Below the pieces are notes generated by a model. It saw nothing but the letters and a program-made list of their open reading frames with translations, did not search any database and was not told the DNA's origin. Both the position numbers and the translations under genes were made by a program. 64,000 nt of DNA from SAR86 cluster bacterium. GTDB taxonomy: Bacteria; Pseudomonadota; Gammaproteobacteria; Magnimaribacterales; Magnimaribacteraceae. The stretch lies in contig JAQWNM010000005.1 in the NCBI GenBank assembly GCA_029268615.1, positions 62,001 through 126,000 of the forward strand. Reading direction: 5' to 3'. Shown piece by piece: positions 15,370 through 50,447 of this stretch (position 1 is its first letter; the number at the start of each line of letters is the position of its first letter).

Positions 15370-15430
15370 ATTTCTTGATTGTATTAAGAAACGAGGATTT
15401 TATACTTATATCAACCAGAGTAAAAGAATA

Positions 15431-16303: not shown

Positions 16304-16311
16304 TAATTTAT

Positions 16312-16340
16312 TTGCTCAATACTTAATTACTGTATATAAT
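16312..16340 (+). promoter_or_regulatory. lexA promoter
   Basis: TTGCTC (16312-16317) and TATAAT (16335-16340) are separated by 17 bases, a sigma70-type arrangement. The -10 box lies inside the LexA operator, which would let bound LexA block polymerase. A second TATAAT at 16346-16351 overlaps the operator's right edge. Confidence 0.6.
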
Positions 16341-16347
16341 TACAGTA
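16328..16347. promoter_or_regulatory. LexA operator (SOS box)
   Basis: The site has the E. coli/gammaproteobacterial form TA-CTGT-N8-ACAG-TA, with CTGT at 16330-16333 and ACAG at 16342-16345 and both outer TA steps conserved. It lies 19 bases upstream of the lexA ATG, so lexA autoregulation is expected. The divergent 5'-nucleotidase starts 24 bases to its left and could also be repressed by it. Confidence 0.92.
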
Positions 16348-16366
16348 TAATATCATTTTTATAAAT

Positions 16367-16975
16367 ATGAAAGATTTAACTATAAGACAAAGAGAAGTTT
16401 TAGACCTTATAAAAAATAATGTTCGAAACTATGGATTTCCTCCTACTAGAGCCGAAATCTCAAAAAAACTTGGCTTTAAATCTCCTAATGCAGCAGAATC
16501 CCATTTAAGGGCCCTAGAAAAAAAAGGAGTTATATCTATTCAAGCCGGCTCTTCAAGAGGAATAATTCTTAATCTGAATAATGGAGATTTAGGAATACCA
16601 ATTATAGGCCTTGTAGCAGCTGGAGGACCCATCTTAGCTCAAGAAAATATTGAAAAAAGAATATCTGCCTCTCAAGAAACCTACCCCAAAGGAATTGACT
16701 TTTATCTTCGTGTCAAAGGGGACAGTATGATTGAAGCTGGTATATTGGAAGATGATCTTATAGGAGTAAATAAAGACACAGAAATAAGAGTAGGGTCGAT
16801 AGTAATTGCTAGAATTCATGATGAAGTAACAGTAAAAACTTTAAAAAAACTTAGTACTGATAAAGTAATATTAAAACCCGAGAATTCAAAATATTCAAAT
16901 ATAGAAATTAATCCCACAAGAGAAGATCTGTCCTTTGAAGGAACTTGTGTAGGTTTATTAAGAAATTACTCATAA
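16367..16975 (+). CDS. lexA: LexA repressor
   Basis: This 202-residue protein (same length as E. coli LexA) is the SOS master repressor. The N-terminal winged helix-turn-helix spans ~1-65 (PPTRAEISKKLGFKSPNAAESHLRALEKKG). The A85-G86 self-cleavage bond is in GLVAAGG, and the latent protease Ser/Lys dyad is S120 (KGDSM) and K157 (VTVKTLK). An SOS box precedes it. Its last 10 bases overlap the end of topA on the other strand. Confidence 0.98.
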   Translation: MKDLTIRQREVLDLIKNNVRNYGFPPTRAEISKKLGFKSPNAAESHLRALEKKGVISIQAGSSRGIILNLNNGDLGIPIIGLVAAGGPILAQENIEKRISASQETYPKGIDFYLRVKGDSMIEAGILEDDLIGVNKDTEIRVGSIVIARIHDEVTVKTLKKLSTDKVILKPENSKYSNIEINPTREDLSFEGTCVGLLRNYS

Positions 16976-19545
16976 AAAAATTTAAATTCTTTTATAGCTA
17001 GAGCTTTTTTTATTATTTCTCTTTTCTCTTCCAAATCTAACTTATAATAATCGTTTACAGTAGGTACTTCTATATCACCACATTTTATATTCTTAATAAA
17101 CTTGAATGCCTTACCCTGTTTCCTTATCTTGATACCAACAGGTTGATTAGTATCTGGGTGAAAGCCTTCAACTCTCAGAGATTTAAGGACAAAAGATCTT
17201 GTTTCATGATTTTCGTAATCAAGAGAATGGGGGTCATAATAAGAAACTTTAGGATTAGCAGGTTTGTTTTCTGGTGGAAGTTTTGTTGCTTTATTAAATC
17301 CATCAAATTCGGTATATTCTCCAAATCTTCCTTTTTTTAGGAAAACAGGTAAATTACTTAAAGATTCAGTAAATAAAATATTTTCTCCTGAATCTCTCTC
17401 AATTAATTCAATGGCTCTATTTAGCCCAATATCTAGTATAAATTCATCTTCATCTGGTGAGCCATAAATCTTTTTTCCTTCCTTAGTGGTCCAAACACAA
17501 GGGCCATTTATACTCATATCAGCATAAATTGGTGAATTTAAATCGGGATGATTACCTAAATCCTTAGGAAGCATTTGATAGGTTTCCCAATCAATATTGA
17601 AATCAAATGGTTTTTTAGTCCACTTGCAACTTGAACAGCCAACAAAATATCCCCAGGCTCCCGACTTTAAACTAGTCTCTTCTGAACACTTAGGACATTC
17701 ACGAGTAATTAATCCCTTTTGAGTTTTAGGAAAAATTACGTCATGAAGCTCCGCATTCAATAAATCTAAAACTTGTCTAGTTTTAAAACCATCTTTATCG
17801 CTTATTTCTATATCGTTTATTTTTTTATTTAAATAACTCTGTAATTCTTTCCAGAACCTATCCAAAACATCATTCCATTTCTTCTCTCCTGATGCCACTT
17901 CATCTAAATCTCTTTCCATTTCAGCAGTAAATTTAGTCTCTATAAAGAAATCTCTAAAAATACATTTCAAGTAAGAAGTTAATATCCTTCCTAAGTCAGA
18001 AGGAATTATAGATTTAGCTCCATAGGCATATTTTTTTGATCTTAAACCTTTAACAATAGTTGCATAAGTAGATGGTCTGCCAATGCCTTCTTCTTCCATC
18101 TTTTTTATAAGTGAAGCTTCTGAATATCTGCTAGGGGGTAGAGTAAACTTTTGTTCAGTAATATTTTCTTTTAAATTTAATTCATCTCCTTGGGACAATG
18201 AAGAAGGAAATTGTGAGTCCGATTCCTCATCTTCTTTAGTAAGTTTCTCAAAGCCCATGAATAAATTCTTTCGTGAAGTAGCTCTAAAAATGTACTTGTC
18301 ATCATGAGATTGAATAGTCAAAATTTTTCTTTCGTATTTAGAATTAACCATCTGACTTGCAACTGTTCTATTCCAAATTAACTCATACAATTTTTCTTCA
18401 TCACCAGATAAATTGACACTAGTTGGAATTAAAGAAATATCAGTAGGTCTTATTGCTTCATGTGCCTCTTGAGTATTTTTTACTCCTGATTTATATACCC
18501 TTATCTGATCAGATAAATAAGATTGGTTAAATTTAGTTGAAATTAAATTTCTTATTTCATGCAATGGGGCTGGACCTGGGCTTGTTTCTGAATATGGATC
18601 GCCTGTATTAGGAGAAGTACTAATAGAGATTCCATCTGTTCTTAAATAAGTTATTAATCCGCCCTCATATAATTTCTGAGCACCGCTCATAGTCCTATCA
18701 GCAGTAAAACCAAAAGAACTGGCAGCTGCCATTTGTAAGGTAGAAGTTCTAAATGGTGGTTTAGGTGAACTAGATTGAGGCTTTGTTTCTATATCAGAAA
18801 GAATAAACGAAGAATTGCTAAGCTCAGATATTATTTGATTTACCCAGTCTTCATTATCTATTGGTGCTTGATTAAGATTCCTTTCATTAATTTTTATTAG
18901 GTCGGTCTCAAATATAGAATCTCCAAATTCGAAAGTGGTCTTTATTGGCCAATATTCCATTGGAATATGTGCATCCCTCTCATCCTCCCTTTCACAAATA
19001 AGTCTTAAGGAAGGAGATTGAACTCTACCTGCTGATTTTGCTCTAGAAATATGCCTCCATAAAAACGGTGAAACTTTGAAACCTATCAAATGATCTAATA
19101 TTCTTCTTGTTAAATAAGCATTAACTAAATTTTCATCTATAGTTCTTGGATTTTCTACAGCTCGTTTGATTGCTGAAGAAGTGATCTCAGTAAAACTAAT
19201 TCTTTTTAAGTTTGTTTCTGCAAGTAATTTTTTATTATCGAAATCATTTTGTAAATGCCACGCTATTGCTTCCCCCTCTCTATCAGGGTCAGTTGCTAAA
19301 TAGACATTATTTACTTCTTTACAAATCTTCCTCAACTCCTTAATAGTTTTTTTCCCTTTAACTGTTTCTTGCCATTTGAGATCAGACCAGTTAAGTGGAT
19401 TAACAGCTCCATCATCGTCAGGAAGATCTCTAAAATGTCCCAGACAGGGAATGACCATCCATTCCTCTTCCGGAAAAGAATCATCTAAGTAACCTTTAAT
19501 CTTTGTAGCTTTAGCTCCTGACTCAACTACCACTAGAGACTTCAT
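16966..19545 (-). CDS. topA: DNA topoisomerase I
   Basis: This is an 859-residue type IA topoisomerase. The ATG at 19545 is preferred to an in-frame TTG at 19557: GGGA lies just upstream and MKSLVVVESGAKA is the family N-terminus. The Toprim domain holds E in VESGAK (most homologues have ESPAK) and the acidic triad in ATDPDREGEAIAWHL. The active tyrosine is Y300 in GGLITYLRTDG. The C-terminus has one four-cysteine zinc ribbon (CPKCSEETSL...GCSSCKW) and two zinc-less repeats (LKKGRFGEYTEFDG; IRKQGKAFKFIK), fewer zinc ribbons than E. coli TopA. It relaxes negative supercoils. Confidence 0.96.
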   Translation of the reverse strand: MKSLVVVESGAKATKIKGYLDDSFPEEEWMVIPCLGHFRDLPDDDGAVNPLNWSDLKWQETVKGKKTIKELRKICKEVNNVYLATDPDREGEAIAWHLQNDFDNKKLLAETNLKRISFTEITSSAIKRAVENPRTIDENLVNAYLTRRILDHLIGFKVSPFLWRHISRAKSAGRVQSPSLRLICEREDERDAHIPMEYWPIKTTFEFGDSIFETDLIKINERNLNQAPIDNEDWVNQIISELSNSSFILSDIETKPQSSSPKPPFRTSTLQMAAASSFGFTADRTMSGAQKLYEGGLITYLRTDGISISTSPNTGDPYSETSPGPAPLHEIRNLISTKFNQSYLSDQIRVYKSGVKNTQEAHEAIRPTDISLIPTSVNLSGDEEKLYELIWNRTVASQMVNSKYERKILTIQSHDDKYIFRATSRKNLFMGFEKLTKEDEESDSQFPSSLSQGDELNLKENITEQKFTLPPSRYSEASLIKKMEEEGIGRPSTYATIVKGLRSKKYAYGAKSIIPSDLGRILTSYLKCIFRDFFIETKFTAEMERDLDEVASGEKKWNDVLDRFWKELQSYLNKKINDIEISDKDGFKTRQVLDLLNAELHDVIFPKTQKGLITRECPKCSEETSLKSGAWGYFVGCSSCKWTKKPFDFNIDWETYQMLPKDLGNHPDLNSPIYADMSINGPCVWTTKEGKKIYGSPDEDEFILDIGLNRAIELIERDSGENILFTESLSNLPVFLKKGRFGEYTEFDGFNKATKLPPENKPANPKVSYYDPHSLDYENHETRSFVLKSLRVEGFHPDTNQPVGIKIRKQGKAFKFIKNIKCGDIEVPTVNDYYKLDLEEKREIIKKALAIKEFKFFYE

Positions 19546-19575
19546 ATAAATTCCCAAAATTTAAAGTTCCTTTTT

Positions 19576-27229: not shown

Positions 27230-27300
27230 CATTTTCTTGTTGTGATTTTACTTAAATTATTGGAAAATTGACTTTCCGCAAAAATTTTTATGGACTTGCT

Positions 27301-29169
27301 ATGTTAAAAAGCGAAGATTTGACCTATACGAAGAGAATATTACCTCTAATATTCTTATCTCTTTTCTCAATAAATTCTTATTCAGAACCTATAGATTTAG
27401 AAAAAAGTGAATCTATCACACCTGAACAAGAAAGACTTCTTCAAGGGCTTCCTGCAGATCAAGCTGCAGCCGTGAGACTTAAGATAATGGATCAGCAAAC
27501 TTTGACTAATGAAATCAAGAAGACATTTGAAGATGTAAATACTCTAGTACTTAGACCAGAAAAAAGAGAATTAACGGGTCAAGAAAAAATTGAATACGAA
27601 AAAAAAGCAAGGAATTGGGTTTATGGATATGAACTATTTGCCTCTGCCCCATCAACCTTTGCTGCAGCAACAGATATTCCTATACCTAACGACTATTTAA
27701 TAGGACCTGGGGATACTTTCATGATTCAGGTTTTAGGAGGAGGGAATTTAACCGGAGGAGGAAGACAACAAGAATATATAGTAGATAGATCTTACTCAAT
27801 TACATTACCTGGAATTAAACCTTTTAACTTAGCCGGTCTTAGCTTTAATGAAAGTAGAGAATTAATACAGAAACAAGTTAAGACACAGTTTGTGGGTTCT
27901 GAAGCTATTGTAAGCTTAGGTGGAATCAGAAGCATAAAGGTTTTCGTTATGGGTTCAGCTTATTTACCTGGAGCTTATACAGTAAGTTCCCTGGCTTCGA
28001 TTACCAATGTTTTACACATTAGCGGCGGGGTGTCTGATATTGGATCTGTTCGAAATATTGAACTTAAAAGAAAGGGTAAACTTATTACTACATTTGATTT
28101 ATATGATCTTCTATTAAAAGGAGATACAAGTAGTGATATAAGAGTCCAAAATGGAGATGTAATCTTTATACCTACCATCAGAAAATCTGCAAGAATGCAT
28201 GGAGATTTTAGAAGGCCAGGACTATTTGAACTAAAAGAAGGAGAAAACCTTAAAACTTTAATAGATTTTGCTGGAGGACTTGGATCCAATGCCAGAGCTA
28301 ATGCTGGTGAGCTTAATAGAGTTAACAGAAATATAGGTAATAGAGAGATAATTAAAATTAATGCTAACTTAGATGAAAACCTAAATCTTAAAGTATTAGA
28401 TGGAGATATGTTCTTTGTTCCTTCTATCACCGCTTTAAGTCAGGCAAATGTTATCTTAAGTGGTCAATTTAGATATCCTGGTAGTTACTCTGTTAAAAAT
28501 GGTGAAAAATTATCAAGTTTACTGGAGAGAGCTGGAGGCTTCACTGAGAGTGCATTTATTGCTGGAGCTGTTTTAAATAGAGAATCAATTTCAGAAATGC
28601 AAAATACTTCTTTTAGAAGAGCTGCTGATGATATGGAGTCTGCAATTGCTGGTGCAATTATTGGAGGAAAACTTCAAGGAGGAGTAGGTGCTGCAACTAG
28701 CGACTTAATAACTAGACTTAGGACAGTTAGATCACCAGGCAGACTGATAGTGGATATAGATCCAATTAATATTGAAAAAAATCCTGAGAAGGATATATAT
28801 ATTGAAGATGGAGATAAAATTCATATACCTAGCAGAGTTAATGCTGTGACTGTTGTTGGCGATGTATATTCTCCAGGTACTATTCCTTTTAAGAATTCTT
28901 ATACTACAAAAGATTATTTAGCTCAGGCCGGAGGCCTAAGACCATCGGCAGACCCAAAAGAAATATTTATGATTCTACCTAATGGAGAGGCAAGAGCAGT
29001 TAGAGATGGAATTTGGAAATTAAGAAGACAGTTTATATCTCCTGGAACTACTTTATATATACCAAGGGATACCTCGCCATTTGATTGGTTACTTGCAACC
29101 AAAACTGTAACTCCAATATTATCCAACCTAGCGACAACAGCAGCAGCTTTAGCTGCCATAGACGATTAA
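27301..29169 (+). CDS. Polysaccharide export protein with multiple SLBB domains (Wza/GfcE-like)
   Basis: From the ATG at 27301 (622 residues; an in-frame TTG at 27268 seems less likely), a signal peptide ends near SYSEP. The poly-export domain follows (NDYLIGPGDTFMIQVLGGG), then four SLBB repeats, each with a G-x-F/V-x-x-PG and AGG core: GSAYLPGAYT, GDFRRPGLFEL, GQFRYPGSYSV and GDVYSPGTIPF. This fits the outer-membrane polysaccharide translocon family. There is no lipobox cysteine as in Wza, so anchoring is different. It is followed after 19 bases by yjbH-like and yjbF-like genes, matching the group 4 capsule/Yjb export systems, with no YjbG, Wzc kinase or phosphatase nearby. Confidence 0.9.
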   Translation: MLKSEDLTYTKRILPLIFLSLFSINSYSEPIDLEKSESITPEQERLLQGLPADQAAAVRLKIMDQQTLTNEIKKTFEDVNTLVLRPEKRELTGQEKIEYEKKARNWVYGYELFASAPSTFAAATDIPIPNDYLIGPGDTFMIQVLGGGNLTGGGRQQEYIVDRSYSITLPGIKPFNLAGLSFNESRELIQKQVKTQFVGSEAIVSLGGIRSIKVFVMGSAYLPGAYTVSSLASITNVLHISGGVSDIGSVRNIELKRKGKLITTFDLYDLLLKGDTSSDIRVQNGDVIFIPTIRKSARMHGDFRRPGLFELKEGENLKTLIDFAGGLGSNARANAGELNRVNRNIGNREIIKINANLDENLNLKVLDGDMFFVPSITALSQANVILSGQFRYPGSYSVKNGEKLSSLLERAGGFTESAFIAGAVLNRESISEMQNTSFRRAADDMESAIAGAIIGGKLQGGVGAATSDLITRLRTVRSPGRLIVDIDPINIEKNPEKDIYIEDGDKIHIPSRVNAVTVVGDVYSPGTIPFKNSYTTKDYLAQAGGLRPSADPKEIFMILPNGEARAVRDGIWKLRRQFISPGTTLYIPRDTSPFDWLLATKTVTPILSNLATTAAALAAIDD

Positions 29170-29188: not shown

Positions 29189-31327
29189 ATGCATAGGTCT
29201 TATAAGACTTTATTTGCTTTCAGTCTTCTTATTTTTACTAGTGCTGGATTTGCTTCCTTATATGATTACTTACCCAAAGATGTAGGCCCTACTTCTTCAA
29301 GATATGGAGGAATAGGATTAATAGAATACCCAACAGCCAGGTTTCAATCATCAGGTAACTTAAGACTTGGTATAACTTCAAGATACCCTTATGAGGTAAC
29401 AGCTTTAACAGCGACACCCTTTTCATGGATGGAGGCTACCTATCGATATACTGAAGTTAAAAATCAAAAATATAGCGAATTTGAGTCATTTAGCGGTAAT
29501 CAGACTTTAAAAGATAAAGGCTTTGATTTTAGATTCTTAGCATGGAAAGAAAGTAAATATCTTCCTAATGTAGCATTTGGCTTTAGAGATATGGCAGGTA
29601 CGGGTTTATTCTCTGCTGAATACTTAGTTGCCAGCAAGAGGTTCTGGAATTTAGATGCGACACTAGGACTAGGTTGGGGTACATTGGCAGGCCAAGGCAA
29701 TTTCAGTAATCCATTAATAAAATTAAGAGAAAATTTTAGATCTAGAACTAATGATTATGGTCAAGGAGGAGACTTTTCACTTGACAGCTTCTTCTCAGGA
29801 GAAAAAGTCGGCCTTTTTGGAGGTATAGAGTATAACCTACCTTTCAGGGGATGGAGACTTAAATTAGAGTATGATACTGCTAATAATGATCCTGCCTCAT
29901 CAAAAGCTGACCGATCTTCTCCATTTAATTTCAGTCTAACTTCTGGTCAAAGAGATATGATTGAATATAGTGTTGGTATTTCCGGAGGGGAAACATTTCA
30001 ATTTAGCTTCTTTATGAAAGGAGATTTTGGTACTGGAAGTATTGTACCTAAGATAGACCCCCCCATAAATTTAAAGGTTCCATCCCAAAAAGATAAAAAT
30101 AGACTAAAAGCAGATCCTGAACTCTTATATGGTTCAATTAATGCAAACTTGGCTGTTGAAAATATTTATACACAAGGAATCTCTCTATCTGAAGATGAAA
30201 TTACCTTAACTATTAACCAGGCAAAATTTAGATCTCAACCTAGAGCCATAGGAAGAGCTATAAGAGTTGCAAGTTATCTAGCTCCTGACAATATAGAATT
30301 TATTACCATCAACACGATGAATGCTGACGTTGAATTGAGTAGCACAACAGTAAGAAGAGAAAATATAACCGACTATTTAAATTATAAAGGAAGTAGAGCT
30401 GAAATTTGGAATAATGCACGCATAAGGGCTCCTGAATATCAACATTACAAGTCTGCAGATTTTAAACCTTATGTAAACTTTCCTGAAGTAAGAACAAATA
30501 TAGCACCGGCATTAAGAAATATGATAGGCGGTCCAGAAGCTTTCTTTTTAGGTCAGTTATGGATAAGAATTAATAATTCTATTAAATTTGCTAGGGGCTT
30601 AGAATTAAGCACGGTTGCAGGTATTAACGTTTACAGTACCTTTAATGAATTAAAGACCGCGAGTGATAGTGTTTTGCCTCATGTAAGAAGTGACATACAA
30701 GAATATTTAAAAGAGGGAAAAAATAATATCCAAAGAATGAAGTTAGACTATATTTTTTCTCCTTATAAAGACATCATTGCACGCTTAGACTTTGGATTAA
30801 TGGAGGAAATGTTTGGTGGTGTTGGAGGTGAAATACTATATAGACCATTCAATAAATCATGGGCTGTAGGTATAGCAGCTCATAGAGTTAGGCAAAGAGA
30901 CTTTAACCAATTATTTGATTTTAGAGATTATGAAGTTACTACTGGGCATCTAGAAATATATAAAGAATTTGCTAAGCAAAGAATAATTGCTCAATTAATG
31001 GTAGGGCAATTCTTAGCTGGAGATAAGGGAGCAACCTTAGATGTTTCAAGAAGATTCCATACAGGTCTTAGACTTGGCTTTTTCGTTACAAGAACAAATG
31101 TTCAAGCTGAGGAGTTTGGTGAAGGGAGTTTTGATAAAGGTATCTACTTCCAAATACCTCATGACTTATTTTTTACTAATTACAGCACCGGTAATGTCTT
31201 CTTTGGTATACATCCACTCACAAGAGATGGCGGCGCCCTTCTTGTTCAACATCACTCTCTTTATTCCATTACAGGTAATACTTCTTTCTATGAGCTGGAA
31301 AGAGATTGGCAAGATATATTAGACTAG
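29189..31327 (+). CDS. YjbH/GfcD-like outer-membrane exopolysaccharide protein
   Basis: This 712-residue secreted protein (signal to about SAGFAS) opens its mature part with the YjbH/GfcD pattern: SSRYGGIGLIEYPTARFQSSGNLRLGITSRYPYEV. It is rich in alternating aromatic/hydrophobic strands, ending in a C-terminal segment with an aromatic last third (ITGNTSFYELERDWQDILD). E. coli YjbH and GfcD are predicted outer-membrane beta barrels needed for exopolysaccharide or group 4 capsule. It sits between the SLBB exporter and the YjbF lipoprotein, 4 bases upstream of the latter. Confidence 0.87.
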   Translation: MHRSYKTLFAFSLLIFTSAGFASLYDYLPKDVGPTSSRYGGIGLIEYPTARFQSSGNLRLGITSRYPYEVTALTATPFSWMEATYRYTEVKNQKYSEFESFSGNQTLKDKGFDFRFLAWKESKYLPNVAFGFRDMAGTGLFSAEYLVASKRFWNLDATLGLGWGTLAGQGNFSNPLIKLRENFRSRTNDYGQGGDFSLDSFFSGEKVGLFGGIEYNLPFRGWRLKLEYDTANNDPASSKADRSSPFNFSLTSGQRDMIEYSVGISGGETFQFSFFMKGDFGTGSIVPKIDPPINLKVPSQKDKNRLKADPELLYGSINANLAVENIYTQGISLSEDEITLTINQAKFRSQPRAIGRAIRVASYLAPDNIEFITINTMNADVELSSTTVRRENITDYLNYKGSRAEIWNNARIRAPEYQHYKSADFKPYVNFPEVRTNIAPALRNMIGGPEAFFLGQLWIRINNSIKFARGLELSTVAGINVYSTFNELKTASDSVLPHVRSDIQEYLKEGKNNIQRMKLDYIFSPYKDIIARLDFGLMEEMFGGVGGEILYRPFNKSWAVGIAAHRVRQRDFNQLFDFRDYEVTTGHLEIYKEFAKQRIIAQLMVGQFLAGDKGATLDVSRRFHTGLRLGFFVTRTNVQAEEFGEGSFDKGIYFQIPHDLFFTNYSTGNVFFGIHPLTRDGGALLVQHHSLYSITGNTSFYELERDWQDILD

Positions 31328-31331
31328 GACA

Positions 31332-32021
31332 GTGAATAGAAAATTCATAAAAAATACTTTATTAGCTTTAGGAGCAATAATCCTAGCAAATTGCTCTGCT
31401 GTAGGATTAAAGTCTAGTGGAGCAGGATTCTTATCTTCTAACTTATGGATAAATAGCTTTAGTAAAGTGATCTTTGGATATCCTGATTATCCTATTTCAA
31501 GGGAAATGGTTGAGAATATACCCTATGCATCTTTAAGGATAAAAATAGGCAAGGGTCCTGCTGGATTAATGATATTACAAAAAATAGAAGGAAATACACT
31601 CTCCTGGATAAGCAGGGACGAAGTTCTTATTCAGACCAAGAATGGAAGAATAGTCAGAACATCAAAACTAAATAATGATTTATCAGATTATTATTATGAT
31701 ACTGATCCAGAATTTATAGAAATACTTGAAGAGAAAAAAATAAAATCTCAAAGGGTAATAAGCTTAACAAATCCAAAAGCAAGTCATATTGAGCTTCAAG
31801 TTACATCCAGTACTAAAGATAAAAAAGAAACTATAGAGATCTTAGGAAATGAATATGAACTTATTAAAATTTCAGAAAAGATTCATAATCGGCTGATTAA
31901 GTGGAAATTTACAAATACTTACTGGGTAGACTCAGAAGGATTTGTATGGAAGACAATTCAACAAATTGCTCCTAATGTACCGCCTATAGTAATAGAAGTT
32001 ACTAAACCCTATTCAGCATAA
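31332..32021 (+). CDS. YjbF/GfcB-like lipoprotein
   Basis: This is a 229-residue lipoprotein starting from GTG, with signal MNRKFIKNTLLALGAIILANC and lipobox LANC. The YjbF-family core is visible: YASLRIKIGKGPAGLMILQKIEG, LSWISRDEVLIQTKNGRIVRTSKLNNDL and C-terminal NTYWVDSEGFVWKTIQQIAPNVPPIVIEVTKPY. YjbF/GfcB acts with YjbH/GfcD at the outer membrane in polysaccharide secretion. It is the last gene of the plus-strand export cassette. Confidence 0.85.
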   Translation: MNRKFIKNTLLALGAIILANCSAVGLKSSGAGFLSSNLWINSFSKVIFGYPDYPISREMVENIPYASLRIKIGKGPAGLMILQKIEGNTLSWISRDEVLIQTKNGRIVRTSKLNNDLSDYYYDTDPEFIEILEEKKIKSQRVISLTNPKASHIELQVTSSTKDKKETIEILGNEYELIKISEKIHNRLIKWKFTNTYWVDSEGFVWKTIQQIAPNVPPIVIEVTKPYSA

Positions 32022-32230
32022 ATTAATTTGACTTTTAGAACATCTAGATTGAACAGATCCTTATTATCTAGATATTTTTATCTGGTAAAATATATCATTA
32101 AAAAATAAATATTTAGCAAAACAAAATTTCTTATAAAGAGAGATCTTTTATGAGATGTTATTCTCAGGACTATATATTTTTCTTCTCTACATTATTATTT
32201 TAATCACATAGAGAAGATAAAATTAAAAAC
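32022..32230. other. Non-coding stretch between the export cassette and terminator
   Basis: These 209 AT-rich bases follow the yjbF-like stop. A 9-base perfect inverted repeat, TCTTCTCTA (32181-32189) and TAGAGAAGA (32209-32217), encloses a 19-base loop just before the terminator. A 17-codon reading frame (32150-32203, MRCYSQDYIFFFSTLLF) follows an AGAGAG-type SD. It could be a 3' UTR element, a small RNA or nothing functional. I see no clear promoter pair. Confidence 0.3.
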
Positions 32231-32272: not shown

Positions 32273-34639
32273 TTAACAGTTAGCAGTACATCTTGTTGCT
32301 ACTGAAGTCACAATTGTGGCCTTTGTAGTAGTAGATGGTTCTGTGATTGTTGTTTTACCAGCATCTGTATTATCACCTAAGAACTCTTCAGTAAGATTAA
32401 CTAAAGTAGTTTGGTCGGTATTTTGATTAGCAGTTACATAATCTCCTTGGTAACCTGGCTTATTTCCACCAGTATTAGGGTCTATATAAGTATCTGAAGG
32501 AATCGCATAAGTTTCTGAGTAACCTTTTCCTTCGGTACTTTCACCGCTAGGAGCTAAACCTCCACCAGGACCTGCAGATACATAGTCACCTAAGTAACCA
32601 GGGGCTGCACCACCTGTGTTTGGATCGATATAGTAGTTACCTCTTCCATCACCCTGTTTGAAAGCTGCAGGGATAACATATTCTTCATAACCTACATTAC
32701 CTACAAAGTCTGCTGCACCTCTAGATGAGCCTGTAACTACAGATTGGTCTAATCCATTTTGAGGGTCAACATAACCTCCTCCAGTTCCATCCCAAGCTTC
32801 CCCAATGACATACTCTTCTAATGCACCTACACCTTCATTACCCATACTGAAAGATCCTTCTACGCCGTTTGAAGCACCAGTAACAAAGTCACCTAAGTAA
32901 CCAGGGGCTGCACCACCTGTGTTTGGATCTTTATAGCCTGTCTTAGTAGAAGCAACGTCTCCACGAGTTACTACATCATCTGCTGCAACATATGGAATCT
33001 CATACACTTCTGAGTATCCCTTTCCTTCTGCAACTAAGCCTCCAATATTAGCACCTTGAGTAACTTCTCCACCTTGATATCCTGGAGCGTTACCTGCACC
33101 ACCAACTGATTGTCCTAGAGCAGATGCATTAGCATCAGCATAAGCTTCATAAGGTATTGCATAAGACTCTGAATAACCAGAATCTCTATAATCTCCACTT
33201 TCTGTCCATGCGTTTGGAGAGGCGGCTAAACCTTCGTCTCTACCAACAGTGTTATTACCTCCACCTACAGCTCCTCTAACGTATTGAGCACTTTCTGGAT
33301 CACCAGAAGATCCTTTACCTGTATTAGGGTCAGTAAAACCTACAACTGAACCATCAACATAAGTTTCAGGTGGAATTACATAAGCTACCGAAGCACCCAT
33401 TCCAGCTAAATTATCACCATCAACATTATAGCCTTCTCCTTCATAACCAGAATTTGAAGAATATCCAGCAGATAACGCTCCGGCCTCACCAGATTCTGAA
33501 GAAGCCACTACTGAACTACCCAAAGAACCTGGGGCATTTCCTCCCGTGTTTGGATCTACATAAGTAGATGTACCATCAGCGTTAGCTGATCCAGGAATAA
33601 TATCTGTTGGCGTACCAACTGGGATAATGTATACCTCTTGTGCCGAAACTGGAACACCTGAAGCATCATAACGAACGCCAGTGTTTATATCTCTATAATT
33701 TCCAATTCCACTTACTGAGTTTGTTGCAACTATAGGATCTTCAGCGTAGTTACCCCCGCCAAAGCTAGTTGGTCCACCATTGGCTGCTTGAGTTACATAG
33801 TCACCTAAATAACCCGGAGCATTACCGCCCGTATTTGGATCCCTATAAACTGTTAAGCCATTAATATTTGCGTTAGCAGTATTTGTATCCCCAGCTGCCG
33901 CGTTAGCAGCTTCAGCATTAGCACCTGGCTCAGGTATTGTATAAATAAGGTAAGAATCAGATGCTACAAGCGTTACAGATTCAATAAGTCCTTGTTCTTG
34001 TAACTCTCCATAATATGTTGCTGCTGAGCCTGTGGCGTATGCATCTGCGACTGTTGTAATATCAGGATCTCCTGATTCGTCTACATCCCCAGTTGTCATA
34101 GTTGCTGTTGCAGTTGCACCCGTTGTTCTTGTTGCCGTTGCTCCGGTTGTTCTAGTAGCCGTTGCACCCGTTGTTCTAGTAGCCGTTGCTCCGGTTGTTC
34201 TAGTAGCCGTTGCACCCGTTGTTCTTGTGGCAGTTGCACCGGTTGTTCTAGTACCAGGAACATCTACAACGATGTTCTTTGTTTCAGATTTAATGTACTC
34301 CTCTATAACCGGCTCCGGCGGAGGAGGCGGCGGCGGAGGCGGCGGCGGTGGTGGTGGTGGTGGTGGTGGTGGTGGCGTAGGAGCCTCATCACTACCTCCA
34401 GTAGAAGAATCTGCAATTGCAAGAGCCGCTGCAGCAATTGCTGCAATAGCCGCTACAGTACCAAGTGCTATTCCTCCAGATGCGCTAGATGCTGCATCAC
34501 TACCTGCAGCTCCACCCGTTGATTTCTTTTCTCCATCCTCAGCTTTCTTTTTGTCCCCATCTGACTCTGCAGCTAAACCTAGCTGAGAAGTCAGTAAAAG
34601 AAAGAAAGATGCTGCTATTGATATTAGTTTGTTTTTCAT
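32273..34639 (-). CDS. Giant secreted repeat protein with YjbE/GfcA-like N-terminus
   Basis: This 788-residue protein is of unrecognised function. Visible order: signal peptide (1-23, ending LGLAA); charged linker; Gly/Ala helix GGIALGTVAAIAAIAAAALAIADSSTGG (~55-82); 20 prolines (89-108); six TRTTGATA repeats (130-177); about eight imperfect ~60-90-residue modules (~230-750), each with a YxIP motif, a DPNTGG-APGYLGDYVT-like motif and often GxGYSE; a Thr-rich tail ending TRCTANC. The first 85 residues recall the small YjbE/GfcA proteins (signal, Thr/Ala-rich, one Gly/Ala span, D-S-x-G-G end). It faces SLBB-YjbH-YjbF genes across a shared terminator. I infer a surface or matrix component of that system. 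Remote similarity is judged by eye only. Confidence 0.75.
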   Translation of the reverse strand: MKNKLISIAASFFLLLTSQLGLAAESDGDKKKAEDGEKKSTGGAAGSDAASSASGGIALGTVAAIAAIAAAALAIADSSTGGSDEAPTPPPPPPPPPPPPPPPPPPPPEPVIEEYIKSETKNIVVDVPGTRTTGATATRTTGATATRTTGATATRTTGATATRTTGATATRTTGATATATMTTGDVDESGDPDITTVADAYATGSAATYYGELQEQGLIESVTLVASDSYLIYTIPEPGANAEAANAAAGDTNTANANINGLTVYRDPNTGGNAPGYLGDYVTQAANGGPTSFGGGNYAEDPIVATNSVSGIGNYRDINTGVRYDASGVPVSAQEVYIIPVGTPTDIIPGSANADGTSTYVDPNTGGNAPGSLGSSVVASSESGEAGALSAGYSSNSGYEGEGYNVDGDNLAGMGASVAYVIPPETYVDGSVVGFTDPNTGKGSSGDPESAQYVRGAVGGGNNTVGRDEGLAASPNAWTESGDYRDSGYSESYAIPYEAYADANASALGQSVGGAGNAPGYQGGEVTQGANIGGLVAEGKGYSEVYEIPYVAADDVVTRGDVASTKTGYKDPNTGGAAPGYLGDFVTGASNGVEGSFSMGNEGVGALEEYVIGEAWDGTGGGYVDPQNGLDQSVVTGSSRGAADFVGNVGYEEYVIPAAFKQGDGRGNYYIDPNTGGAAPGYLGDYVSAGPGGGLAPSGESTEGKGYSETYAIPSDTYIDPNTGGNKPGYQGDYVTANQNTDQTTLVNLTEEFLGDNTDAGKTTITEPSTTTKATIVTSVATRCTANC
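32584..32929. repeat. 43-base identical direct repeat, two copies
   Basis: Bases 32584-32626 and 32887-32929 are identical over 43 positions and lie exactly 303 bases (101 codons) apart. They encode the DPNTGGAAPGYLGD block in modules 5 and 7 of the giant protein. Identity at silent positions points to recent duplication or gene conversion. Confidence 0.9.
34109..34252. repeat. Six 24-base tandem repeats (TRTTGATA codons)
   Basis: Six in-frame 24-base units encode residues 130-177 of the giant protein. Adjacent units differ at fixed positions (CCG/CCC, GCT/GCA on the plus strand), giving a 48-base higher-order period and suggesting duplication of two-unit blocks. Copy number could vary between strains. 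Confidence 0.93.
34316..34375. repeat. Triplet run encoding 20 prolines
   Basis: On the plus strand the tract is mixed GGC/GGA units followed by about ten GGT units, encoding 20 consecutive prolines on the minus strand. Pure GGT triplets are prone to slippage; mixed codons in the other half are not. Confidence 0.95.
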
Positions 34640-42814: not shown

Positions 42815-43687
42815 TTATTTAGTATCAAGCGCGATAGACGAAAGGTATTCTCCATAACCAGTATTCAAATGTTTCACTATCTGCATTTCCAGTATTTCTT
42901 TATCTATCCACCCATTGAGATAAGCTATTTCTTCTAAACAAGCAACCTTAAGTCCTTGTCTATGCTCAATGGTTTGAACAAATTTACTAGCATCTAATAA
43001 TGAATCATGTGTTCCTGTATCCAACCAAGCAAACCCCCTGCCCAATACTTTGACTTTTAATTTCTTTCTATCTAAATACACCTTATTTAAATCTGTAATT
43101 TCTAATTCCCCTCTTCCTGAAGGTTTTATTGATTTAGCTATCTCGACTACATCATTATCATAAAAATAAAGACCAGTTATTGCAAAGTTTGACTTAGGGT
43201 CGGACGGTTTTTCTTCTATGTGAATTGCTTCGCCAGCATCATTAAAATCAATGACGCCAAAATCTTCTGGATTATTTACTCGATAACAAAATACCGTGGC
43301 ACCCTCTTTTGATGAAACTGCTTCATGAAGAGACTCACTAAAGGATTGACCATAAAAAATATTATCTCCAAGGATTAAACAAACACTATCATTTCCTATA
43401 AACTCCTCACCTAAAATGAAAGCCTGAGCTAAGCCATCTGGAGATGGTTGAATTTTGTAAGATAGTTTTAAACCAAATTGGCTTCCATTTCCTAACAGTT
43501 TCTCATAACCATCAATATCTTGAGGAGAAGAAATAATTTGAATCTCTTGAATTCCAGCTAGCATCAAAACAGACAATGGATAATAGATCATTGGCTTGTC
43601 ATATATTGGGAGCAATTGTTTTGATACTCCCAAGGTAATAGGTCTAAGCCTAGTCCCATTGCCTCCTGCTAATATTATTCCCTTCAT
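42815..43687 (-). CDS. rmlA: Glucose-1-phosphate thymidylyltransferase
   Basis: This 290-residue nucleotidyltransferase makes dTDP-glucose. It has the N-terminal [39 protein letters not shown] and [23 protein letters not shown] and [19 protein letters not shown]. The length is that of RmlA (E. coli 293). It is 40 bases downstream of rmlB, so dTDP-4-keto-6-deoxyglucose is the expected shared product of the pair. Confidence 0.96.
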
Positions 43688-43726
43688 AAATTTTCTCTCT
43701 TAATAGAATATATATTAAATCCCAAG

Positions 43727-44746
43727 CTATGTATTCTTATTCAAATCTTCCAAATACCAATTTACTGTTTTTTCTAAGCCTGATTTAAAAGTTTCAGAAG
43801 GCGACCAATTCAAATCTTTTTTTATTTTGCTGCAGTCTATAGCATACCGCAGATCATGCCCCGGCCTATCTTCAACAAAAGAAATTAAATCTTCATAATT
43901 CTTTAATGTGCCTGGTTTATTAGGTATCTTTCTTTCAATTATATCTAAAATCTGATGAACTACTTCGATATTTTTAAGCTCATTATCACCTCCCACATTA
44001 TAACTTTCACCAATTACACCTTTGGTGAGAATTAGATATAAAGCTTTTGCATGGTCTTCAACATAAAGCCAATCTCTAACCTGTTGGCCATCGCCATAAA
44101 CTGGAATAGCTTTTCCGCTTATAGCATTAGTTATCGTTAAAGGTATAAATTTTTCGGGATATTGAAATGGACCATAATTATTAGAACAATTAGATACAAT
44201 TACAGGTAAATTAAAAGTTCTATGCCAAGACCTAACTAAATGGTCTGAGCTTGCTTTTGAAGCAGAATAAGGAGAACTAGGTTTATAATTAGAATCTTCA
44301 GTAAAAGGAGAGTCATGTTTTTTAAGATCTCCAAAGACTTCGTCCGTAGATATATGATGAAAAAGAAAATTCTCTTTTCGCGGTTTATTCAAACTCATCC
44401 AATAACTTCTTGAGACTTCCAAGAGATTATAAGTACCAATGATATTGGTTTGAATAAAATCTGAAGGACCATCAATGGATCTGTCAACATGAGATTCAGC
44501 TGCTAAATGCATTACCCTATCGGGCTGATAATCCTCAAAAATTTTTTCTAAAAAATTTTTATCACAAATATCCCCTTTTTTAAATGAATATCTCTCATTA
44601 ACTTCTTCGAAGTTCAAAGAATCAAGATTAGCTGCGTAAGTCAAATTATCTAGATTTAAAACATGACTATCTGTCTTTCCAATAATATATCTGATTAAAG
44701 CAGATCCAATAAATCCAGCTCCTCCTGTTACTAATAACTTCATCAT
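43727..44746 (-). CDS. rmlB: dTDP-glucose 4,6-dehydratase
   Basis: This 339-residue extended SDR enzyme has NAD motif [11 protein letters not shown], the [13 protein letters not shown] block, the catalytic site STDEVFGDL and [15 protein letters not shown] (Tyr/Lys), and the substrate block [15 protein letters not shown]. It dehydrates dTDP-glucose to dTDP-4-keto-6-deoxyglucose. It lies 7 bases after the sugar C-methyltransferase. No RmlC epimerase is in the window, which argues against simple rhamnose synthesis here. Confidence 0.96.
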
Positions 44747-44753
44747 TAACTCT

Positions 44754-45983
44754 TTAAACTTCTATTACCTCAAAATAAGGTAATGGGAAAATTAATTTAG
44801 TTCCTTTTTTCATAAATTTAGGTGCTTTCTTAACTATATGATCTTTATAATTCCAAGCCGTAACTATGAAAGAATCTACTGGATCTAATGTATGTTGTTC
44901 TTCTGAAATAACAGGAATATTAAAAAATGGAAATATTTTACCTATCTTTGTAGGGGTAGTGTCAACGCAATATTCGAGATCAGAATTATCAAGCTCCAAA
45001 AAAGAGAATAAGGTAAAAGCCTTAGCAGTAGCTCCATAAGCACCAATTCTTTTTCCACCTGCTTGGTCTAGTCTTATTTCCTGTAGAACTTTATCTTTTA
45101 AAGAAGAAGCATTCTCATTAAAATGAGAAAATATCTTATCTTCTAAGAATAAGGAATCTTCCTTTTCAACATATTCTTCAACTATTGGCTCTATAGGCCT
45201 AGAGCCTTTCCTAGAAGCAATAAAAACTAAAGATCCTCCATGAAGATTAGTTTCTAAAAGACTGGTAATCTCCAAAGAATAAAAATCTAGTAAAGTTTGC
45301 ATGGACTTAACTGAATAATAAAACATATGTTCATGATAAATTTGGTCTAGCTCACCATTTTCCAATGTTGGAATTGCGTATGCATTTTCAATAATAAATG
45401 ATCCATTCTCAGAAAGAAGTGCGCAAACTCCTTCAAGCATCGGCTTAGGGAACTTATTATGAGCAAACATATGTCTTGCTATAACTAGATCTTGAGCCCC
45501 ATAATCTTTAAGAATTTTTGAAGCAGTTTCAGGAGTAAAGAATTCAGCGATAGTTTTAACCCCTTCTCTATTGGCTATAGCAGCTATATTTTCTGCAGGA
45601 TCTATACCTAAAACTGAAGCAACATTTGGCTCTAAAGATTTAAGGAAGAGACCAGTATTACTCCCTAATTCTAAACAATTTGTTCTATTGTCTACAATAT
45701 TCCTTTCCTTTAAATAAGATATCAAGATTTCATAGTGTTGAAATTGAGAATCAGTATCTGGAGTCATATAAGAGTAATTCTTATAAAGATCCTCCTCATT
45801 TAAACAATTTCTTAACTGAAGAGAGCTACATGAATCACAAAAATCAACAATTAAAGGATAGAGTCTTGATTCTTCATCTAAAGAACTAATAAAATTATTA
45901 GCTGGCGGCGAAGAGCCTATATCTATAACTTCTCTTACTATTTTGTTGCAGATACGACAAGAGCTCTCTAAGATTTTAGTCAT
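44754..45983 (-). CDS. NDP-hexose C-methyltransferase-like protein
   Basis: This 409-residue protein has the three-part architecture of sugar C-methyltransferases: an N-terminal zinc domain (CRICN at ~10-14 and CDSCSSLQL), a SAM-binding domain ([14 protein letters not shown], then [22 protein letters not shown]), and a C-terminal Rossmann-like domain ([16 protein letters not shown] ... [19 protein letters not shown]). Such enzymes methylate C3 of dTDP-4-keto-deoxysugars. Being directly upstream of rmlB and rmlA, it likely makes a branched dTDP-sugar for a surface glycan. Confidence 0.86.
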
Positions 45984-46023
45984 TTTTAAAATTTATTCAA
46001 TTTTCGAGACATAAAAACAAGAA

Positions 46024-47130
46024 CTATAAACAATTAGACTCTAAAATAGCTAAATATTTTGACTTAACTACATTTGTTGAATATTTTTCTACAACTTTTT
46101 TTCTTCCATATTGTCCTAATTCAATTCTTTTATCAGGATTTTTAATTAAAAAATTTAAAGCGTTTAGCCAGTCCTCATTTGTTTTAACTAATAGACCATC
46201 TTTCTGATTTTCTAAAATAATAGAACTTGTTCCATAATCCGAAGCAACCACTGGCAGGCCTATCGCCATATATTGCATAGCTTTTAGCCCTCCCTTACCT
46301 AAACCCCACTCATCAAAGAAGATAGGATAAATACCTATATCAATAGATTGTAAATCATCTATCTCATGATCCTTAGACCATTGAATAACCTCTAAATCTA
46401 TCCCAGGTAATTTATAATCAAAATTACCAATTATCTTTAATTTAAAATCATGCATCTCTGACAAACTCATAAAAACTTCTTTTAAAGAATCAAGATAAGG
46501 TTTTGAACTAAAAGTTCCTGTCCAACCAATGACAACTTTTCTTTCCTTTTTAGAAGAATGCCTGGGTACAAAATAATCTGTATTTAAAGAACAGGGTATG
46601 TAATCCGAAGCATGCTTATAATTTAAATTTCTGCAATAATCTAGATGAAAAGGTGAGCTGATAATTACATGATCAGAATTCTTTATTAAATATTTAGTCT
46701 TTCTAGATCCTCCTTTTAATTTAGCAATTATCCAAGAAGTAAAAGAGGTCTTGTTAAAAGATAAATCTATATGAACAAAGTCATCAAAATCAAAGATTAA
46801 AGACTTAGACAACCCTCTCACAGCCCTTTCAAATAAAGTTCCAATCGGAGAAACCCACATAAAGACATAGACTAAATCATAATCTTTAATTCTAAATAAA
46901 ATTTTAATTCTTTTTAGATAACCTCTAATAGTGCCGAGAAATTTCCTTGCATAATGTCCTTCTTGGTGAAGAATTGACCATAAATCCATATCAGAAAAAT
47001 TTGATACCTCCACCTCAAAACCATTCTCTTGCCAATTTTCAATATATTGCTCGTACTTTAATCTTTGGCCTGCCGCAACTCCTTCTGGATAAGGACAAAG
47101 TACTAAAATCTTCTTCTTACTATCTATCAA
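46024..47130 (-). CDS. Glycosyltransferase, GT-B fold (GT4-like)
   Basis: This is a protein of about 368 residues. No ATG starts are present near the N-terminus. A TTG at 47130, giving an 11-base overlap with the upstream gene, fits the conserved start KKKILVLCPYPEGVAAGQRLKYEQY; a TTG at 47172 would give a 53-base overlap. The C-terminal donor-binding domain has VVIGWTGTFSS and GKGGLKAMQYMAIGLPVVASDYGTSS. It probably transfers a sugar during surface glycan assembly, following a second glycosyltransferase. Donor and acceptor are unknown. Confidence 0.82.
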   Translation of the reverse strand: MIDSKKKILVLCPYPEGVAAGQRLKYEQYIENWQENGFEVEVSNFSDMDLWSILHQEGHYARKFLGTIRGYLKRIKILFRIKDYDLVYVFMWVSPIGTLFERAVRGLSKSLIFDFDDFVHIDLSFNKTSFTSWIIAKLKGGSRKTKYLIKNSDHVIISSPFHLDYCRNLNYKHASDYIPCSLNTDYFVPRHSSKKERKVVIGWTGTFSSKPYLDSLKEVFMSLSEMHDFKLKIIGNFDYKLPGIDLEVIQWSKDHEIDDLQSIDIGIYPIFFDEWGLGKGGLKAMQYMAIGLPVVASDYGTSSIILENQKDGLLVKTNEDWLNALNFLIKNPDKRIELGQYGRKKVVEKYSTNVVKSKYLAILESNCL

Positions 47131-48325
47131 GATGATTGTAAATTTGTTGATAAGACTGGACGCCCCTTTCAAGAGAAAAATTTTCTTCAGCTACTTTTCT
47201 GCATCTTCTTTTGATGTCAGGTTCTTTTGATAATTGCATTATTTCCTGCAAACCTTCTTGCAGAGATTCTCTGTTAAAATCTTTAATGGAAACGCCAACA
47301 TTATTGGCTTCTAATATATCAGTCATATCACCTATACCATGATTTCCGAGACAAGGTACTCCTGATCCAAGAAATTCTCCTAATTTTGTAGGTGCAGAAG
47401 AAATTTTAGAATAAAAGGGTTTAATAAAGAATATACCTGCATCCATTTGTTGCATAAAATTAGCCACTTCATCCTGATTAGCTTCAATTAAGATAACATT
47501 TTTTTGATCTATATCTAGATCATCTAACTTCTTCTGAATTAAATCATGTTGCCCTTTATTTAAAATAAAAAATCTTGCTGAGGGATCTATTTTTTGGAGC
47601 ATCTGATAACAAACTAAAGCTTCTTCAAAAGCATACCAAAGAGTAACTGAACCTACATGACCTAAAGTAAAAGGTTTATTAAGGCTTGACTCTTCTATCC
47701 CTTTTTCTTGGGGAAGATTAAATACCTTTAAATTTGCACAGGTTGTTATAACCTTAAATTCTTTATTTATGCTCTGTAAATAAGGAAAGGATTTAATCTC
47801 TTTTACTCCAGCTCGAGTTAAAGAAACAATTATATCTGCGTTTAAAAAGAAAGATTTTTCTAGAAACTTTGCTATTTTATACAACATACCTTTTTTTTTC
47901 CAAGAACCGCTATCAACTTTTTCATCAGGCCATAGCCCTCTCATATCAAAAATAAATTTCGTGCCCAATAATTTTTTTACAAATACTCCTATAAGAGCGG
48001 GGACATAACTTCGAACATGAATTATTGATATTTTATTTCTGTAAGAAATCATAAATGCCACTAAACACCCCAAAAATATATCAAAACCTGTAGCTAAGGC
48101 CGTTGGAGACTTGTGATAGTCCAGGCTCTTCCATTTTATTCCACAATCTAAACAATCTTGTCTCATGTTGATAATTCTTTCTTGGTCAAGAATATCTTTC
48201 TTCTTTTCGAAACTTAATAACCATATCTCATTATTCTTAGACAGTTCTTTCAAATAACTCCAAACTTGAGAATAGCCTAAAGGTTCAAGAATTCCGTCGT
48301 AAGAAATATAAAGAATCTTGGACAT
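47120..48325 (-). CDS. Glycosyltransferase, GT-B fold (GT4-like)
   Basis: This 401-residue protein has the acceptor-binding N-terminus MSKILYISYDGILEPLGYSQVWSYLKELS, a middle FIFDMRGLWPDEKV, and a donor-site segment LGHVGSVTLWYAF with the later APTKLGEFLGSGVPCLG. It is tandem with another glycosyltransferase and 11 bases downstream of a methyltransferase, as expected in an O-antigen/capsule-type cluster. The sugar specificity cannot be read from the sequence. Confidence 0.86.
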   Translation of the reverse strand: MSKILYISYDGILEPLGYSQVWSYLKELSKNNEIWLLSFEKKKDILDQERIINMRQDCLDCGIKWKSLDYHKSPTALATGFDIFLGCLVAFMISYRNKISIIHVRSYVPALIGVFVKKLLGTKFIFDMRGLWPDEKVDSGSWKKKGMLYKIAKFLEKSFFLNADIIVSLTRAGVKEIKSFPYLQSINKEFKVITTCANLKVFNLPQEKGIEESSLNKPFTLGHVGSVTLWYAFEEALVCYQMLQKIDPSARFFILNKGQHDLIQKKLDDLDIDQKNVILIEANQDEVANFMQQMDAGIFFIKPFYSKISSAPTKLGEFLGSGVPCLGNHGIGDMTDILEANNVGVSIKDFNRESLQEGLQEIMQLSKEPDIKRRCRKVAEENFSLERGVQSYQQIYNHLDR

Positions 48326-48336
48326 ATTTTATGTTT

Positions 48337-49167
48337 TTATTTTTTCTTGTATGCGAGGCTAACCCAATGAGGTGTTTTATCTGAAAAAGATATTCTTTCA
48401 AACCCAGCCTCTTCAAGCATTATAGTAATGTCTTTTTTACTAAAACGTTGCTCTAATCTTGTGCCAAACCTATCTAATGCATCTGTCTTTAAAAAATAAA
48501 AAGGTTTGTTTCTGTAATCTGATAAAGGGAAATTATCAATATTGAATCCTATTTTTTCAAACAACATAGCAAATCTAGCAACCGGGAGATAAATTATCAC
48601 AGCTATCATAAAGCATATAACCCGTTTAATAGTAAATGGCATTTTACAGACTGCACCTCTAATTAAATCAGTTAATTTCCATATTGTCTTAAACCACAAA
48701 GGTTTATTCTCAAAATTATAGTAAAGATAAAGTAAAAAAGGAGCTCCTATTTTGAGCAAAGACGCACACGACTTTATGCCTTCAGCTGTATTTGGTATAT
48801 GATGCAAGACACCTAAACAATAGCCAAAATCTTGGGATGATTTTTCAATAGAAATGTTATCTGCTGAAGCTTGATAAAAGTCAATATTCTCTAGATGGGA
48901 AAGTCTTGTTTTAGCCACTTTAATTGCTTTTTTACTAGGCTCAATACAATTCAAATGTTTTACCTTAGGAGCTACAAATTTAGCCCATCTTCCACTTCCA
49001 CAACCCATATCAAAACCTTTAACATCATCACCTAGATCCTTAAAGGGGAATATATCAAAGTACTGGTTAAATGCTTTCTTAATATCTTGATCGCTTAATG
49101 CAGATTGATCATAAGTTGACCACTCATTCCCAAAATCTTCTACAACTTTATCGTCAATGTTACTCAT
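48337..49167 (-). CDS. SAM-dependent methyltransferase (class I)
   Basis: This 276-residue protein has SAM motif I as VKGFDMGCGSGRWAKFVAP and motif II/III as LGVLHHIPNTAEGIKSCASLLKIGAPFLLYLYY. A hydrophobic patch (ICFMIAVIIYLPVARFAML) could be a membrane contact. It sits between the NeuC-like epimerase and glycosyltransferases, so methylation of a glycan or lipid-linked sugar is likely. It is preceded by 119 gene-free bases. Confidence 0.82.
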   Translation of the reverse strand: MSNIDDKVVEDFGNEWSTYDQSALSDQDIKKAFNQYFDIFPFKDLGDDVKGFDMGCGSGRWAKFVAPKVKHLNCIEPSKKAIKVAKTRLSHLENIDFYQASADNISIEKSSQDFGYCLGVLHHIPNTAEGIKSCASLLKIGAPFLLYLYYNFENKPLWFKTIWKLTDLIRGAVCKMPFTIKRVICFMIAVIIYLPVARFAMLFEKIGFNIDNFPLSDYRNKPFYFLKTDALDRFGTRLEQRFSKKDITIMLEEAGFERISFSDKTPHWVSLAYKKK

Positions 49168-49286
49168 CTTTAATATTTAAATTTATGGTATATTAAAAAA
49201 TTCTTCACTTTACGAGATAGACACATAACATACAACTCCTAAGTATTTTAAAGATTTTCAAAGACACTTTACATTTAATCTTAAAA

Positions 49287-50447
49287 TTAACTTAAATCAT
49301 AAAATGGCTTCATTAAAAGATCTTTAAAGGATGCATCTTCTAAAATTTGAATTATTTTCTGTGATGCTCCACCTTCTCCATATGGATTATCAGTCAATTC
49401 AAGACTTTTTTGAAATGATTCAGAATAAAGATTATCTATAGCTTTAATTATAGAATTCTTGTCAGGATTACAATCAATTATACTGGATGCCCTTAATCGA
49501 CCATCCTGCCTATGACCTATATTGATTGTTCCTTTACAAAAAGAAGGAACTTCTGAAATCCCGCTTGAAGAATTTCCTACCACTCCATCTACTTGAGCTA
49601 TGCATGATAAGTATCTTAAGTGCCCCAAAGAAGTGAAGGAATATGCATTATTATTTGATAATACAAAATCTTCGATCATTGAAAATAAAATACTGCTATC
49701 TGTGTCTGCATTGGGCATAGTAAAAATAAGTTGCGTATCTTTTAAAGAAGTTAAAGATTTCATTAATTCTTTCATCTGATCTTGAGAAGAATATTCTTCA
49801 AGCGTCACAGGGTGGAAAGTAATTAAAAGATTTTTTTCTTTAAATTTTAAACCTAATGAATCCTCCAATTCTTCTTTATCCATGAGTTGAAGTCTTTTTA
49901 TACTATCTACACCTAAACCTCCAACCATAAAAACTTTATCCGGTAATTCGCCAAGTTGAATTACCCTTTTCTTATATTCTTCTGCAGCAACAAAGTGAAA
50001 GTGGGATATTTTAGTAATTGAATGCCTAATTGCTTCATCGATAGCACCTTCTGCCCTCTCACCTCCACTAATGTGAGCAATGGGTATTCTATTAAACATA
50101 GCGGCAATTGCGGAAGCAAAGATTTCAAACCTATCTCCGAGTATTAAAACTAGATCAGGTTTTAAATCTTGGTATGCACGAGAAATTTCTTTAAGAGCAA
50201 TAGCAGTAGAGCTGGATAAACCTAAAGGGGTATCAGAAATTAAATTAATATCAATTTTATAATCTATTTTGAAACCATCTTTTTCAATATCTTTATATGT
50301 TAATCCAAATTTCTCTGATAAATGCATACCTGTAGCTATAATTTGGAGGTCAAATTCCTGAGATTGTTCTATTAATGATATCAAGTGAGACAAAAGACCA
50401 TACTCAGCTCGAGTTCCAGTAACTACACATATTTTGCGTTTGGTCAT
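49287..50447 (-). CDS. Hydrolysing UDP-N-acetylglucosamine 2-epimerase (NeuC family)
   Basis: This 386-residue protein matches NeuC/LegG-like enzymes: CVVTGTRAEYGLLSHLI, LVLILGDRFEIFASAIAA, HISGGERAEGAIDEAIRHSITKISHFHFVA, NSSSGISEVPSF and CKGTINIGHRQDGRLR. They release ManNAc or a 2,4-diacetamido mannose analogue for nonulosonic acid synthesis. The expected partners NeuB (synthase) and NeuA (cytidylyltransferase) are absent from the window. They may lie elsewhere, or the product is used differently. Confidence 0.88.
   Translation of the reverse strand: MTKRKICVVTGTRAEYGLLSHLISLIEQSQEFDLQIIATGMHLSEKFGLTYKDIEKDGFKIDYKIDINLISDTPLGLSSSTAIALKEISRAYQDLKPDLVLILGDRFEIFASAIAAMFNRIPIAHISGGERAEGAIDEAIRHSITKISHFHFVAAEEYKKRVIQLGELPDKVFMVGGLGVDSIKRLQLMDKEELEDSLGLKFKEKNLLITFHPVTLEEYSSQDQMKELMKSLTSLKDTQLIFTMPNADTDSSILFSMIEDFVLSNNNAYSFTSLGHLRYLSCIAQVDGVVGNSSSGISEVPSFCKGTINIGHRQDGRLRASSIIDCNPDKNSIIKAIDNLYSESFQKSLELTDNPYGEGGASQKIIQILEDASFKDLLMKPFYDLS

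Follow-up and report, generated by a model that had tools for sequence, protein, structure and literature searches.

Within two Escherichia coli capsule and exopolysaccharide (EPS) systems, no components are less well understood than GfcA and YjbE. The yjbEFGH and gfcABCD genes have been tied to EPS and capsule production, and GfcB, GfcC and GfcD bind each other (PMC8592465, PMC11494523); yjb mutations in E. coli alter capsule anchoring or mucoidy (PMC8117528, PMC8540638). In one model GfcD/YjbH forms a double barrel potentially able to export a lipid-anchored glycan (PMC11494523), and its N-terminal barrel has been likened to FapF, with secretion of amyloidogenic polypeptides proposed (PMC9603273). 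For GfcA, which has been called entirely uncharacterized (PMC11494523), modification by O-antigen and export through GfcD have been proposed (PMC8592465).

Both small proteins share a simple layout. GfcA (YmcD) has 101 residues and is encoded by the first gene of the co-directional group 4 capsule operon gfcABCDE-etp-etk, where GfcB, GfcC and GfcD are its partners. It consists of a signal peptide, an Ala/Gly/Val helix starting GGVAAG, an NDSGDGGS stretch and a Thr-rich part. YjbE (PF11106), with 80 residues, is likewise encoded upstream of its partners and co-directionally in the yjbEFGH operon. Outside SAR86, a YjbE/GfcA-like open reading frame (ORF) is present at 51 of 79 yjbH loci, lying upstream in the same orientation in nearly all of them, with lengths of 73–338 residues (start sites uncurated) and a typical TGTTGTT-like end. 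Those beside yjbH in Pseudomonas, Stenotrophomonas, Burkholderiales and others encode a GG[IV]xxGTxA-type helix, a D/S/G stretch and a Thr/Gly-rich end. Across loci L100–L199, such proteins occur widely next to yjbH in gamma- and betaproteobacteria and escape PF11106, so that a broader family model is needed. At three loci (L188, L190 and L193), ORFs of 228–286 residues upstream of yjbH have an extra N-terminal part (YDTAAECDAAVAAGTAKFYTSFTHKP-like) preceding a YjbE-like helix and a TGTTGTT tail, representing another route to a larger protein of this family.

The window analysed here, a stretch of 64,000 nucleotides from a SAR86 genome, contains exporter genes convergent with a gene for a 788-residue protein, P0001 (Table 1). 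Because the SLBB protein bears a GfcC C-terminal domain, counterparts of YjbF, YjbG and YjbH are all present. The AlphaFold2 (AF2) model of the window YjbH (pLDDT 76.5) shows two halves rich in strands, with an alpha/beta domain in the middle, the two barrels being read from the strand pattern of the model. No Rfam match was found in the window. A surface-glycan cluster lies about 8–16 kb from the exporter genes (42815–50447), encoding a nucleotidyl transferase, a dehydratase, a C-methyltransferase, two glycosyltransferases and a UDP-GlcNAc 2-epimerase.

Table 1. Features of the exporter locus and of the protein encoded opposite it (window coordinates)
Feature	Position	Strand	Evidence
Outer-membrane polysaccharide export (SLBB/Poly_export) protein with fused GfcC C-terminal domain	27268..29169	+	Domain search
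YjbH/GfcD double-barrel outer-membrane protein	29189..31327	+	PF06082, E 4e-192
YjbF/GfcB lipoprotein	31332..32021	+	PF11102, E 9e-38
Hairpin, probable terminator, between convergent yjbF and yjbE-like genes	32177..32221		z -3.3
Enlarged YjbE/GfcA-like protein, predicted secreted (P0001), 788 aa	32273..34639	-	Sole match in its own genome to the non-SAR86 YjbE/GfcA profile
Predicted Sec signal peptide, residues 1-23	34571..34639	-	Cleavage site inferred from sequence; model helix 2-20
Conserved Gly/Ala-rich hydrophobic helix, residues 56-78 (GIALGTVAAIAAIAAAALAIADS)	34406..34474	-	G/A positions invariant across SAR86; model helix 59-75; hydropathy
20-proline run, residues 89-108	34316..34375	-	PT/PA repeats at same place in relatives
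Segment common to family-level relatives, residues 113-176: EEY...VVDVPGT and six ATRTTGAT repeats	34112..34303	-	Relatives' profile; 24-bp DNA repeat
DPNTGG/YxIP module array, residues 221-740	32420..33979	-	Six module matches; shuffles; dN vs dS; seen only in source genome
Thr-rich C-terminus, residues 741-788, last residues ATRCTANC	32276..32419	-	Sequence

The anatomy that the initial annotation had described for this ORF is real, including the run of 20 prolines, the six repeats (RTTGAT, residues 129–176) and the SLBB, YjbH and YjbF genes facing it. As in GfcA and YjbE, a signal peptide (with cleavage predicted from the sequence), a linker, a single Ala/Gly helix and an Asp/Ser/Gly stretch follow one another, and the partner genes correspond. 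The linker is charged and then Gly/Ser-rich. Only one hydrophobic segment is apparent: the best 19-residue span is 57–75, with a mean hydropathy of 2.46, and all spans past residue 90 stay at or below 1.3. P0001 would be secreted by Sec. It differs from GfcA and YjbE in its length, in its convergent gene and, relative to GfcA, in its modules and polyproline run; the non-SAR86 ORFs linked to yjbH also lack modules.

Profile comparisons support a YjbE/GfcA-like nature of residues 1–90, as had been claimed. A profile built from E. coli GfcA and YjbE, together with seven further non-SAR86 proteins whose genes adjoin yjbH, gave a single match in the whole 1.77-Mb source genome, namely P0001 residues 1–83 (E 5.1e-6), and an enlarged non-SAR86 profile matched P0001 at 9.5e-9, the next ORF of the window scoring 0.16; the N-terminus is compositionally simple, and these scores therefore partly reflect composition. 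Among 199 genomes of the order, the YjbE/GfcA profile gave four matches, three of them beside yjbH. The fourth, away from yjbH on contig C1 of genome G059, is probably due to chance; the yjbH-linked gene of that genome is on C3. When small alignments of SAR86 and of non-SAR86 sequences were compared with hhalign, the results were weak or confined to the signal peptide. P0001 has no NCBIfam match and no Pfam match over cut-off, and it falls below the cut-off of PF11106, which no genome of the 276 in the class exceeded. E. coli GfcA also fails this cut-off, indicating that PF11106 covers the YjbE branch only, so P0001 is not filed there. Residues 1–85 matched a PHROG annotated as of unknown function (E 0.011), and Pfam matches such as Mito_fiss_reg were set aside as low complexity.

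Independent support comes from genetic linkage. Relatives of yjbH occur in 105 of 199 SAR86 order genomes, and almost all loci with a close YjbH have a gene for a secreted Ala/Gly-helix protein downstream of yjbF. These proteins measure 122–129 residues in one family, 140–313 in another and 219–281 in the family of the window. A profile of the SAR86 family proteins matched 60 of the 199 genomes. In 53 of the 60 the gene lies on the yjbH contig, and in all 53 it is downstream and convergent; three of the remaining genes are on other contigs, and four genomes have no yjbH match, two of these four family matches being weak. Presence of the family gene goes with yjbH (56 of 105 genomes with it, against 4 of 94 without; Fisher 2e-15, with genomes treated as independent and kinship ignored). 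This is an order-wide SAR86 family paired with yjbH, and its convergent placement is an order-wide rearrangement relative to the E. coli arrangement. Neither outcome that would speak against the initial annotation, a lack of N-terminal likeness or homologues away from YjbH and YjbF, appeared. The profile and linkage results together support the YjbE/GfcA link of P0001 and a putative partnership with the exporter.

Within this family P0001 is an outlier in size, with an open frame of 818 against at most 324 elsewhere. The relatives of 219–281 residues occupy the same place between yjbF and pyrD, also convergent, their family profile matches the N-terminus of P0001, and they contain PT linkers and ATRTTGAT repeats. 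Residues 113–183 score 72 bits against a profile built from 11 relatives, compared with 7 for the best shuffle, which suggests that roughly residues 1–183 are ancestral. The relatives end, however, in V/E/Y-rich and TATATR tails and lack DPNTGG modules. About residues 184–788 (~605 residues) thus appear to be new in the source genome. The proposal that a repeat-bearing extension was added to a small accessory protein needs correcting: relatives in the same family already have 219–281 residues, so that the starting point in this lineage was not a protein of 80–100 residues. The Thr-rich tail gave no significant alignment with the relatives' tails, and insertion between two conserved ends, together with a strand-donation model that rested on it, was dropped for this reason.

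The roughly 600 residues with the modules are rich in Gly, Ala, Asn, Tyr and Asp. Where about eight modules had been counted initially, the module profile gives six clear matches (7e-32 to 2e-14), the remainder being only degenerate DINTG/DPQNG boxes; the motif YxIP occurs 7 times, DPNTG 6 times, APGYLGD 3 times and GxGYSE only twice. The two halves of the region align with a Smith–Waterman score of 242, whereas none of 500 shuffles exceeded 104, so the repeats are not due to chance. Between DPNTGG boxes dN is 0.09–0.34 and dS ranges from 0.7 to saturated in most pairs, the exception being one recent pair, the two most alike copies, which diverged too recently for dN and dS to be judged. The modules are mostly under purifying selection. 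Codon use is host-like, with a GC3 of 0.19 (0.19–0.24 in neighbouring genes) and a four-fold-site GC of 0.14 (0.16–0.22). A foreign origin, considered in view of the raised GC of the gene (0.42–0.53), was ruled out by third-position GC equal to that of the neighbours; the raised value stems from the Gly/Ala/Pro content.

The module region has no relative in 34 other genomes of the family, and the module profile found no true match in 203 SAR86 order genomes or 398 genomes of the phylum. Weak matches in four SAR86 genomes are MFS transporters and were attributed to chance. Modules were also absent from the phage set and viral contigs searched, and matched no family, including none of Fap type, in the family databases. 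A pattern scan of the genome contigs with P0001 returned no relative, but it used patterns drawn from outside the module and so carries little weight. The predicted structure of the region is of low confidence (pLDDT about 40), and PDB matches to the whole protein were limited to low-complexity and polyproline segments.

P0001 is probably an enlarged SAR86 YjbE/GfcA component of a YjbEFGH/GfcABCD-type system for surface-polysaccharide export or anchoring. The conserved N-terminal part (signal peptide, linker and Ala/Gly helix; about residues 1–183) would work with the YjbF/YjbH/SLBB-GfcC machine, and the variable C-terminal part would project from the export site. In the source genome, about 605 residues with six DPNTGG modules would have taken the place of the C-terminal part or lengthened it. 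The resulting protein is probably long, acidic and flexible, would lie at or close to the cell surface and may touch the exported glycan or the surroundings. Surface-polymer status is plausible. Were the Ala/Gly helix to stop transfer once the signal has been cleaved, the modules would end up in the cytoplasm, at odds with surface display. A bolder and rather doubtful proposal is that YjbE and GfcA are themselves polymers, secreted as partners by way of the YjbH barrel and keeping the glycan at the cell surface, and that this SAR86 lineage has made of that partner a long modular surface fibre with a previously undescribed DPNTGG module.

More broadly, these data point to a YjbE/GfcA-like protein as a common companion of YjbH far outside the limits of the Pfam family, and as one that a lineage of ocean bacteria with small genomes has kept. 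They further suggest that hundreds of residues can take the place of its distal part without loss of the N-terminal helix region. The likely machine-binding part can thereby be told apart from the variable projecting part, which makes the function testable.

One rival reading is that the polysaccharide is O-linked to the Thr/Pro-rich protein and that the protein-polysaccharide conjugate leaves through YjbH, with the repeats supplying more attachment area; the same has been voiced for GfcA (PMC8592465). PT, TST, TGT and ATRTTGAT repeats are abundant in family members and the glycan gene cluster is about 8–16 kb away, but the module array is rich in Gly, Ala, Tyr and Asn rather than Thr and Pro. 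Moreover, the source genome has no Wzy_C match (O-antigen ligase/PglL type) at E ≤ 1, whereas 11 of 14 control genomes have one, which weighs against attachment by that enzyme family; we regard a glycan acceptor as unlikely. Alternatively, P0001 could leave the cell by way of the N-terminal, FapF-like barrel of YjbH, its modules polymerizing outside in the manner of Pseudomonas FapC. The likeness of this barrel to FapF and the proposed secretion of amyloidogenic polypeptides (PMC9603273) are in line with a Foldseek comparison in which the window YjbH matched FapF chains with a probability of ~1.00 over ~300 columns, and the modules are repeated, Gly/Asn/Tyr-rich and conserved. The TM-score to FapF is only 0.39–0.45, however, the P0001 repeats show no sequence similarity to FapC or other Fap-type match, and such modules occur in no other family member, most being short and PT/ST-rich. 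An amyloid or fibre substrate is improbable.

The simple composition, the weak hhalign results and the lack of relatives of the module region could fit an unrelated low-complexity secreted protein lying beside yjbF by chance. This is contradicted by the linkage, with 53 of 53 same-contig cases beside yjbH and convergent, and by the outside profile having its single source-genome match in P0001, which makes coincidence very improbable. The restriction of the array to one genome could also point to an assembly or repeat artefact, or to decaying low-complexity DNA. Such an origin is barely credible given a single 788-codon frame within a 158-kb contig, host codon use and dN below dS between most boxes.

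Genes at 14761–19557 of the window (topoisomerase-like, LexA-like and neighbours), about 15–20 kb off on the far side of the exporter genes, come immediately after pyrD in family relatives, indicating a local rearrangement in the window. At SAR86 loci with a distant YjbH type (L087 and L089–L091), yjbH is followed on the same strand by a gene for a secreted protein of 371–569 residues with a TGTGTG-repeat end, and the partial example at L088 contains HYR/Ig-like motifs.
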